Part shown: in pieces, positions 41,332-45,550 of the stretch
Layout: each line of letters starts with the position of its first letter
Position numbering within the stretch: position 1 is the first letter of the stretch
Assembly (NCBI RefSeq): GCF_002804065.1
Contig: NZ_CP024955.1
Coordinates: forward strand, 3,286,001 to 3,350,000
DNA length: 64,000 bases
Source: Kyrpidia spormannii
Lineage (GTDB): Bacteria > Bacillota > Bacilli > Kyrpidiales > Kyrpidiaceae
Reading direction: 5' to 3'
Program-made: the position numbers and the translations under genes
The notes under the pieces: model-generated
What the model was told of the DNA's origin: nothing
Seen by the model: the letters and a program-made list of their open reading frames with translations, nothing else
The model's database searches: none

Positions 41332-41408
<77 letters not shown>

Positions 41409-41437
41409 CAAAGGTCGACCCCGCGTCGACCCGGCGT

Positions 41438-41514
41438 TGGCGGAGCTGACGGGATTCGAACCCGCGATCTCCTGCGTGACAGGCAGGCGTGATGGGCCTC
41501 TACACTACAGCTCC
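41438..41514 (-). tRNA. tRNA-Asp (GTC)
   Basis: Acceptor GGAGCTG/CAGCTCC with encoded GCCA end, anticodon loop CTGTCAC between CCTGC and GCAGG, T arm GGGTTCGAATCCC. Confidence 0.97.
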
Positions 41515-41526
41515 AAGACATAAAAA

Positions 41527-41601
41527 TGGTGGGCGGTACTGGGATCGAACCAGTGACCCCTCGCGTGTGAAGCGAGTGCTCTCCCGCTGAGCTAACCGCC
41601 C
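41527..41601 (-). tRNA. tRNA-Val (CAC)
   Basis: Acceptor GGGCGGT/ACCGCCC with encoded ACCA, anticodon loop TTCACAC between CTCGC and GCGAG, so the anticodon is CAC. Confidence 0.96.
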
Positions 41602-41666
41602 ATCCCGATCTCCTGTTATCGCCGCACCATTGGTGGCGACGGTGCCGGTTCGGCACAGTCCGGTGT

Positions 41667-41742
41667 TGGTGAGCCATGCAGGACTCGAACCTGCGACACC
41701 CTGATTAAAAGTCAGGTGCTCTACCATCTGAGCTAATGGCTC
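41667..41742 (-). tRNA. tRNA-Lys (TTT)
   Basis: Acceptor GAGCCAT/ATGGCTC with encoded ACCA, anticodon loop CTTTTAA between CCTGA and TCAGG. First of the cluster in transcription order, about 50 bases after the promoter. Confidence 0.97.
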
Positions 41743-43402: not shown

Positions 43403-45550
43403 GTGGTTTCGGAAAAGTCGGAGCCATTGTTTGCGCTGGACATTGGGACGAGAACTGTCGTCGGGCTCACCGCCATTCCCGGAACAAAGGGATTAACGAT
43501 CAAGGCGGTCGAAATTCTTGAGCATCAAACTCGTTCTATGTTGGACGGACAAATTCACGATATACCCCGGGTAGCCGAGCTGATCCGGCGTCTCAAGGCG
43601 CGGTTGGAGAAAAAGGTCGGTCCCCTTCGGGACGTGGCGGTGGCCGCCGCCGGTCGAGCGCTGAAAACCTGCCGGGGAAAGGCTGTTCGCGCTGTGAACG
43701 GTTCCCGGTTAGAGGCGGACGCGGTTCGCGGATTAGAATTAGAAGCGTTGGAGCAGGCTCGCCGAGAATTGGCGGGGGACGAAGAGTCTGCCGGCCGTTA
43801 TCATTGTGTAGGTTATTCCGTCGTCGAATACAAACTCGATGGGACGACGATCGGCAATCTCCTCGGGCAGAGAGGACAGGAGGCCAGCACCGAAGTCATC
43901 GGTACCTTTTTGCCAAAGGTGGTGGTCGAATCGTTGGCTGCGGCCTTGGAAGCCGCAGATCTGCAGATGCGCGCCCTGACCTTGGAGCCTATCGCCGCGA
44001 TCCACGCCCTCATCCCGGCCTCCATGCGAAAGCTGAACTTGGCTCTGGTGGACGTGGGAGCCGGAACCTCCGACATCGCCTTGACTGCAGAGGGTACGGT
44101 CGTCGCCTACGGAATGGTTCCCAGTGCAGGGGACGAAATTACTGAGGCTCTGGCGGAAACCTGGCTGCTGGACTTTGATACGGCAGAGACAGCAAAGCGG
44201 AACTGGCGAGATGCGGAGATCCGCTTTACCGACGTCCTGGGTCATAGCCGAAAAGTGCCGGGCCCGGAATTCGTTCAGTCTATGGCCCCCGCCGTGGACG
44301 GACTTTCAGAACTTATTGCCCGGGAAATTCTCAGCCTGAACGGCCGGCCCCCCGCAGCAGTGCTCTTGATCGGAGGAGGCAGCCTGACACCGGGGCTGCC
44401 GGAGAGTCTGGCCCGGAAGTTGGGCCTTCCCCAGGACCGCGTCGCTGTCCGGTCCGTGGATCATGTGGCAGGATTCGCCAGGATCCCGCCGAGACTCAAG
44501 GGGCCGGACGGTGTAACGCCCCTGGGAATCGCCCTGGCTGCCCTGGAACACCCGGTTCAGACCGCCACAGTTCGGGTCGGCAGTACGGAGGTACACCTGT
44601 TCGACTTTCGAGATCTCACGGTCGGGGATGCGTTGATTCAAGCGGGTATTCACATCCGTTCTCTATTCGGTCGCCCTGGCGCCGCGTTGACGGTGACCAT
44701 CGGAGGAGAGAGGCGCGTTGTTCCTGGCTCACCGGGGTCGGGGCCGGAGATCCGGTTGAATGGTTCACCTGCCACGCTGGACTCGCCGGTCACAAGCGGG
44801 GATCATATCGAGGTACGACCCGGACAAAACGGGAAAGACGCTCGGTGCCGAATCGAAGATTTGATCCCGCCCCTACAAAGTTTGTCGGTGTACGTGAATG
44901 GTGTATCCCAGCCCGTGCCGCCGCGCGTGTTCATGAACGGACACCGGGTCAAACCGGACACCCAAGTGGTAGATCGGGCAATGATCGAGGCGTACATCCC
45001 CGAGCAGTTGCGGGATGTGCTTGAAGATGTCGGGAGACCCGAAGCGTTCTCCCAGCGAGAAATTCATTTTACATGGAATGGCAGGTCCGTTCAGTACGTT
45101 CATCCCAACTGGATCGTGACATTGAACGGGGTGGCGGCCGAACCGGGAACTGTCGTGGCCGCGGGGGATCGGATCGAGATTGTGGAAGCCCCGCCTCCGG
45201 TATTGGCGGATTGGCTCGTCACGAACCCGGAACGCAGTCCCGGGCGGCCGGCCCTCACGGTCACCGTCAACGGCCAGTTGGTACGATTGGACGGGGAAGA
45301 TTATAGGGCGTTCCGGTGCAACGGGCGCCCGGCTGATCCCGGGACGCCGCTTCAAGACGGCGACGACTGGGTGGAGGTCTGGGACGAACAAGTTGGCGAA
45401 TGGATCATCAGCGACCTGTTTCGAGTGATCGATCCCGAGGGGTTGCGACCTGCCGATGCCCGGTCGTTTCACGTGGAGGTCAATGGTGCCGAAGCGACAT
45501 TCACCACGCCCCTTCACACCGGGGACAACGTGCGGCTCTACTGGAGATAG
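43403..45550 (+). CDS. FtsA/PilM-like ATPase with tandem C-terminal beta-grasp-like repeats
   Basis: A 715-residue protein. Residues 1-385 have the actin-like ATPase fold: FALDIGTRTVVGL (phosphate 1), a 1C-type insert, LALVDVGAGTSDIAL (phosphate 2) and LLIGGGSLTPGL (adenosine). From about 385 to the end, five units of 60-70 residues share a pattern with VxVNG, then NGxPAxPxTPVxxGDxIEV and a helix (starting near 429, 494, 554, 618, 689). Such repeats are unlike FtsA or PilM tails. GTG at 43403 with GGGGGGAG upstream. It lies divergent from purA, convergent with dnaB. Likely a cell-surface, division or wall-linked ATPase; role unknown. Confidence 0.8.
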   Translation: MVSEKSEPLFALDIGTRTVVGLTAIPGTKGLTIKAVEILEHQTRSMLDGQIHDIPRVAELIRRLKARLEKKVGPLRDVAVAAAGRALKTCRGKAVRAVNGSRLEADAVRGLELEALEQARRELAGDEESAGRYHCVGYSVVEYKLDGTTIGNLLGQRGQEASTEVIGTFLPKVVVESLAAALEAADLQMRALTLEPIAAIHALIPASMRKLNLALVDVGAGTSDIALTAEGTVVAYGMVPSAGDEITEALAETWLLDFDTAETAKRNWRDAEIRFTDVLGHSRKVPGPEFVQSMAPAVDGLSELIAREILSLNGRPPAAVLLIGGGSLTPGLPESLARKLGLPQDRVAVRSVDHVAGFARIPPRLKGPDGVTPLGIALAALEHPVQTATVRVGSTEVHLFDFRDLTVGDALIQAGIHIRSLFGRPGAALTVTIGGERRVVPGSPGSGPEIRLNGSPATLDSPVTSGDHIEVRPGQNGKDARCRIEDLIPPLQSLSVYVNGVSQPVPPRVFMNGHRVKPDTQVVDRAMIEAYIPEQLRDVLEDVGRPEAFSQREIHFTWNGRSVQYVHPNWIVTLNGVAAEPGTVVAAGDRIEIVEAPPPVLADWLVTNPERSPGRPALTVTVNGQLVRLDGEDYRAFRCNGRPADPGTPLQDGDDWVEVWDEQVGEWIISDLFRVIDPEGLRPADARSFHVEVNGAEATFTTPLHTGDNVRLYWR

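Follow-up and report, generated by a model that had tools for sequence, protein, structure and literature searches.

The described proteins closest to the one treated here differ for its two halves. The N-terminal half resembles the actin-fold proteins FtsA (TIGR01174; PDB 7q6g, 7q6i and 4a2a) and PilM (TIGR01175; PDB 2ych and 5eou), and the C-terminal tail resembles the β-grasp proteins ThiS, MoaD and TGS, SAMP1 and Urm1, as well as the bacterial multi-ubiquitin proteins (PDB 9cd2 and 9d5a). The protein is encoded in the genome of Kyrpidia spormannii, on a stretch of 64,000 nucleotides that was analysed as a whole and that we call the window. With FtsA it shares the actin fold with a 1C subdomain, the residues of the nucleotide site and the length of the N-terminal half. 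Unlike the window protein, FtsA scores above the TIGR01174 cut-off, has an arginine at the position of E. coli R300 and possesses a C-terminal membrane helix, whereas the window protein belongs to a separate clade, carries a β-grasp tail of ca. 330 residues and is not encoded beside ftsZ. PilM belongs to the same actin subclass and its name is used by RefSeq for a member of the family, but the window protein stays below the PilM cut-off, has a long tail and lies in no recognised pilus operon. Each tail domain shares the fold and the NG...GDxIxV signature with the ThiS/MoaD/TGS and SAMP1/Urm1 proteins; unlike these, the tail has no C-terminal Gly-Gly, most probably is an interleaved chain and is fused to an actin-like ATPase. 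The multi-ubiquitin proteins likewise contain several ubiquitin-like domains per bacterial chain and gave the top Foldseek match for the tail (9cd2, E 7e-5), but TM-scores are low (0.14-0.24) and the window protein differs by the ATPase fusion and the probable interleaving. The literature searched, with partly noisy results and thin coverage of subscription journals, contained no description of an FtsA/β-grasp fusion, and two β-grasp surveys (PMC1949818 and PMC1779556) do not mention the term FtsA at all. No described function for the protein was found there either, in agreement with a reading of the window made earlier from the sequence alone (the sequence-only reading).

The gene covers positions 43403..45550 of the plus strand, stop codon included, and encodes a polypeptide of 715 amino acids. 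It starts with GTG at 43403, with a purine-rich GGGGGGAG close 5' of the start, and ends with a stop codon at 45548-45550; a scan for promoters and terminators gave nothing useful for this gene. That the open reading frame is real follows from these start and upstream signals and from an orthologue in a genome of the same genus, which is 94% identical to the window protein. The dN/dS values against this orthologue are well below 1 (0.14 for the N-terminal half and 0.22 for the tail), which indicates that both halves are under purifying selection. The Kyrpidia genome harbors one copy of the gene and one true FtsA, encoded at C1:1410616 at a locus that also bears an FtsZ-like open reading frame; this FtsA reaches 390 bits with TIGR01174 and shows 27% identity to the window protein. 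Downstream of purA, the minus strand of the window carries four clustered tRNA genes (for Phe, Asp, Val and Lys) at 41332-41742, an ordinary arrangement.

An AlphaFold2 model of the protein, computed with 67 homologues as input, had a mean pLDDT of 91. Residues 7-383 (43421..44551, plus strand) form an FtsA-class actin-like module in the profile, AlphaFold2, Foldseek, VIA and alignment results. TIGR01174 matched residues 10-273 with 79.8 bits, which is below the cut-off of 175.85, and FtsA ranked first in Foldseek (7q6g, E 4e-27). For residues 7-383, VIA gave Z-scores of 35.4 for FtsA, 30.3 for PilM and 26.1 for MreB, and the FtsA- or PilM-like actin module recognised in the sequence-only reading was borne out. 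The VIA and Foldseek alignments to FtsA pair 346-364 residues; since the VIA alignment spans ca. 350-360 of 370-390 residues, the FtsA-type 1C subdomain is included. The model and the matches show or at least strongly indicate that the N-terminal half is an FtsA-type nucleotide-binding module with a 1C subdomain. We regard the fold and family assignment as firm, and infer the function, as discussed below.

Several residues of the nucleotide site (D13, G15, T16, D217, G219, G221, G324 and G325) are conserved in FtsA and in the family alike, and an RxMxDGQxH motif is specific to the family, with several further positions that differ from FtsA. Arginine 300 of E. coli FtsA, which lies in a helix, is a contact for the FtsZ tail. 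The aligned position is arginine in all 16 true FtsA sequences aligned, and alanine, cysteine or valine in the six family members displayed. The modelled C-terminus is a β-strand (residues 709-714), and the predicted model of the window protein contains no C-terminal membrane or amphipathic helix. In a phylogenetic tree whose root is not fixed, the family and FtsA form separate clades with support values of 100/99 and 97/98.

The tail, residues 384-715 (44552..45547, plus strand), was assigned to five ubiquitin-like (β-grasp) domains from the model, Pfam, Foldseek, VIA and HHalign. Modelled alone it gave a confident fold (pLDDT 95). Profile-profile comparison of the repeat units with HHalign yielded probabilities of 98.0-98.7% among the four full units and of 95.8-97.6% where the short last one was involved, which indicates that the repeats exceed chance similarity and that the units are homologous to one another. 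Among 67 members searched against Pfam at E-values up to 0.1, ThiS was matched in 58, the Mut7-C ubiquitin domain in 46 and TGS in 32. With VIA, tail residues 1-92 aligned to SAMP1 (Z 8.5, rmsd 3.0, 67 residues aligned) and to TGS (Z 8.0). According to profile and predicted fold, the tail is a repetitive member of the ThiS/TGS/ubiquitin-like fold class. The C-terminal Gly-Gly that is a trait of ThiS/MoaD carriers and conjugated modifiers is absent, the protein ending in ...NVRLYWR. The sequence-only reading had named profile matches to a well-described family as a point against an undescribed function; such matches do exist at the level of the fold class, but they give no function. Within the family the number of tail domains is 3, 4 or 5 depending on the clade, and tail lengths climb in steps of ca. 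64 residues; the short clostridial tails of ca. 202 residues contain three of each element and can be read in the interleaved way described below. One genome (G529) gave two matches, on contigs C87 and C51, one of which is full-length while the other is an open frame of 428 amino acids that covers residues 290-714 only, i.e. a tail from which the ATPase module is largely missing.

In canonical β-grasp domains the order of elements is hairpin (h), helix (a), β3-5 (b). The predicted order in the tail is hA aA hB bA aB hC bB aC hD bC aD hE bD aE bE, so that hairpins, helices and β-triplets number five each once the first hairpin and helix are counted. All elements were taken from the model and lie on the plus strand. 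Domain A starts with a hairpin at residues 386-401 (44558..44605) and a helix at 407-413 (44621..44641); the hairpin of domain B at 429-440 (44687..44722) is placed within it, followed by the β3-5 segment of A at 449-472 (44747..44818), which Pfam and VIA also detect. The helix of B (484-487, 44852..44863) precedes the inserted hairpin of domain C (494-505, 44882..44917) and the β3-5 segment of B (508-531, 44924..44995), helix and β3-5 having additional support from coevolution. Domain C continues with its helix (536-542, 45008..45028), the hairpin of domain D (551-568, 45053..45106, seen also with VIA) and its own β3-5 segment (570-595, 45110..45187). The helix of D (601-607, 45203..45223) is followed by the hairpin of domain E (617-630, 45251..45292) and the β3-5 segment of D (635-660, 45305..45382, also supported by VIA). 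Domain E is completed by a helix (669-672, 45407..45418, supported by coevolution) and a β3-5 segment (689-714, 45467..45544), with which the protein ends without an amphipathic helix. The β3-5 segments of C and E were also covered by ThiS matches of spliced domains, and the pairing of all five hairpins was supported by coevolution.

These assignments point to five interleaved domains in which the hairpin of each following domain lies inside the preceding one. We consider this highly probable, since the interleaved assignment is the only one that uses every element while keeping the canonical order, and rate it no higher because the units are homologous and the pairings derive from predicted elements rather than contacts. 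Mean-field coevolution with 159 sequences was used as a test of INTERLEAVING, with own pairing defined as that of hairpin, helix and β3-5 of one domain. Own pairing had a mean z of 0.92 and the four other circular shifts were at -0.14 or lower; pooled own pairs exceeded non-own pairs with p=2e-6 (1.6e-5 for domains B-E only). With 232 sequences the values were 2e-6 and, for own over adjacent pairs, 2e-4, and with 194 long-form sequences 6e-5 and 3e-3. In smaller subsets own pairing still ranked first at a significance of ca. 0.01, with own over adjacent mostly not significant. These p-values are guides, because block scores were taken as independent and residual phylogeny was ignored. The spliced interleaved domain C of a homologue (L024) matched positions 1-69 of the 76 in the ThiS profile (E 3.3e-7), and spliced domain E of the window protein matched positions 1-68, i.e. 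nearly end to end, whereas a contiguous repeat unit matched the second half of the profile only. As the pieces are homologous, this supports the canonical element order and leaves the choice of pairing undecided.

The alternative is a tail of five ordinary head-to-tail domains in which a helix ends each unit, as in a permuted β-grasp, without interleaving. Every sequence repeat does read hairpin, β3-5 and helix contiguously; yet this layout, which we judge unlikely, has no partners for the first hairpin and helix or for the final triplet, contiguous pairing did not rise above background in the coevolution tests, and VIA lined up canonical ubiquitin-like folds across spans that contain the inserted elements, for example Urm1 over tail residues 169-282, where domain D is expected. 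The interleaved arrangement modifies the sequence-only reading of five tandem β-grasp-like repeats, of which the repeats and their β-grasp-like character (HHalign, ThiS) stand while the head-to-tail layout most probably does not. The unit starts given there (residues 429, 494, 554, 618 and 689) all fall on predicted strands and a repetitive tail of ca. 330 residues is present, but the tail begins near residue 384 instead of 429, the hairpin at 386-401 and the helix at 407-413 having been missed. The last unit is indeed short, because it corresponds to no more than the C-terminal half of a fifth domain. Interleaving accounts both for this short unit and for the overlooked leading elements. That the tail is unlike those of FtsA or PilM proved correct: it has no PilM counterpart and no FtsA-type membrane helix.

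A genome scan detected at least 585 relatives, the best 80 of which are full-length. Nearly all records with relatives are from Bacillota; one is labelled Pseudomonas and has a Bacillaceae-type gene order. Of 299 genomes sampled from the phylum, 171 carried the gene, with rare exceptions as a single copy; in the class Bacilli it was present in 92 of 259. By these counts it is a member of a widespread, uncharacterised and nearly always single-copy Bacillota family and not a Kyrpidia oddity. Unannotated full-length homologues also occur in 'Bacteriophage sp.' contigs from human faeces (MT835753, MT839800, MT838807, MT838720, MT835512 and others), which probably represent bacterial DNA included in a phage collection rather than phage genes.

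The gene order purA-gene-dnaB-rplI-ssb is specific to the Kyrpidia family. The significance that the sequence-only reading gave to the dnaB-purA locus finds no support, since elsewhere the gene occupies many other sites; the reading was right that the gene does not belong to the Bacillus order at this locus, although Bacillaceae often carry it at a different conserved position. There, and in Brevibacillus, it is usually flanked by the gene for DAHP synthase (aroA) and by ytxJ, both of which are encoded on the other strand; in Bacillaceae, murC and a gene for an FtsK-like translocase are close by. In four clostridial genomes of three families the order is mreC-mreD-PBP2-minC-minD-minE-gene-rodA on one strand, and in two genomes of another family the gene follows mbl-flgG-tagA. 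Neighbours in other clades vary and include hemL, cheR and pfkA-lgt. Many of these names were assigned by eye from the sequences; those in Bacillaceae were confirmed by RefSeq annotation, while for MinE and MreC family searches gave confirmation solely in other genomes. As to co-occurrence with MinE, the gene was present in 38 of 57 MinE-positive and 3 of 14 MinE-negative genomes (Fisher p=0.005, uncorrected for phylogeny), a figure on which we do not rely. MinE is absent from the Kyrpidia genome of the window, and MreC is universal in the sampled genomes and uninformative.

Additionally, the gene adjoins ytxH in Bacillaceae, and PDB 9a51 is an integrative crosslinking model of Mbl with YtxH; this neighbourhood may link the locus indirectly to the MreB-type cytoskeleton. 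In Anoxybacillus amylolyticus (NZ_CP015439.1:127665-141785) the block acsA-acuABC-ccpA-aroA-(gene)-ytxJHG-murC-ftsK, which is usually chromosomal, is found on a 258-kb record called a plasmid, so that either core genes are located on a plasmid or the record is a second chromosome-like replicon. At four loci of one clade (L120, L180, L189 and L191) the gene is immediately preceded, at a distance of 7-63 bases and in the same orientation, by one for a predicted membrane protein of ca. 313-344 amino acids. By eye this protein resembles the UPF0104/flippase-like family, and it is a candidate membrane partner in that clade.

We tentatively propose, by analogy, that this FtsA-class actin with a ubiquitin-like tail acts as an ATP-switched scaffold for envelope assembly. 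ATP binding would toggle the actin module between assembly states or drive its oligomerisation, and the interlocked domains would together make up a rather stiff rod with surfaces for protein binding, which replaces the membrane anchor of FtsA and docks the actin module onto an envelope-assembly partner. The sequence-only reading had likewise suggested that the repeats may bind a partner or form filaments. The protein would then work like FtsA or PilM, as a cytoplasmic actin-fold adaptor, and be a member of neither. Clade-limited gene order and the analogy to FtsA and PilM suggest the envelope setting; the machinery for elongation and division (Mre, RodA, Min) would be the most likely context, as in some clades the gene is inside an Mre/Min/RodA cluster. 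The mreC...rodA cluster, the mbl-flgG-tagA context and the murC and FtsK-like neighbours in Bacillaceae speak for such a scaffold. Against it, most genomes place the gene away from Mre/Min/Rod genes (near hemL, cheR, pfkA-lgt, DAHP synthase or purA-dnaB), and it is missing from 167 of the 259 sampled Bacilli. A wider version, in which the ATP-switched protein, with a tail rod of interlocked ubiquitin-like domains that donate hairpins to their neighbours, would link the MreB/RodA/Min machinery to a membrane partner and thereby form a new cytoskeletal or scaffold system of Bacillota, is doubtful.

Of the other functions considered, a divergent FtsA or FtsA substitute acting directly on FtsZ is suggested by FtsA being the top fold and top profile match, and, in a sample of 71 genomes, 12 of the 41 that contain the family have no FtsA over the model cut-off. 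The other 29, however, also hold a true FtsA, so the gene is no simple FtsA substitute and replacement as a rule was rejected; with the arginine at the R300 position replaced, the amphipathic helix absent and a separate clade, such a role seems quite improbable. Less probable again is a reactivase- or chaperone-like ATPase of the EutJ or diol-dehydratase-reactivase type, with the ubiquitin-like tail recognising a metabolic enzyme. EutJ (3h1q) is a good fold match (VIA Z 25.7) and several clades have metabolic neighbours (hemL, pfkA), but the profile matches, weak for the diol-dehydratase reactivase, missed their cut-offs (EutJ 46.1 vs 182 and 38.8 vs 152.1 bits; reactivase 16.9 vs 24.6), the 1C subdomain is of FtsA type, and no partner enzyme conserved across clades was found. 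The least likely of these is a PilM-type protein that serves a pilus, competence or secretion machine as its platform in the cytoplasm: PilM ranks second among the folds and the Anoxybacillus copy is named 'pilus assembly protein PilM' in RefSeq, but this name is not supported by the TIGR01175 score of the window protein (47.5 bits, far under the cut-off of 133), no protein of the Kyrpidia genome exceeds this PilM cut-off, neither the window nor the related loci examined, where neighbours were judged by eye, showed a recognisable pilNOPQ-like operon beside the gene, and the tail is foreign to PilM. Sporulation as the sole role was rejected, since some genomes with the family have no strong Spo0A match and many with strong Spo0A matches do not have the gene.

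Over half of the genomes sampled from the phylum carry this gene, nearly always in single copy, and RefSeq labels one member as PilM. If our proposal is right, many Bacillota have, in addition to FtsA and PilM, a third actin of the FtsA class, and an interlocked ubiquitin-like rod, if true, would represent an uncommon design for a stiff adaptor with several binding sites. The clades that have the gene between minE and rodA offer a concrete starting point for examining its role.
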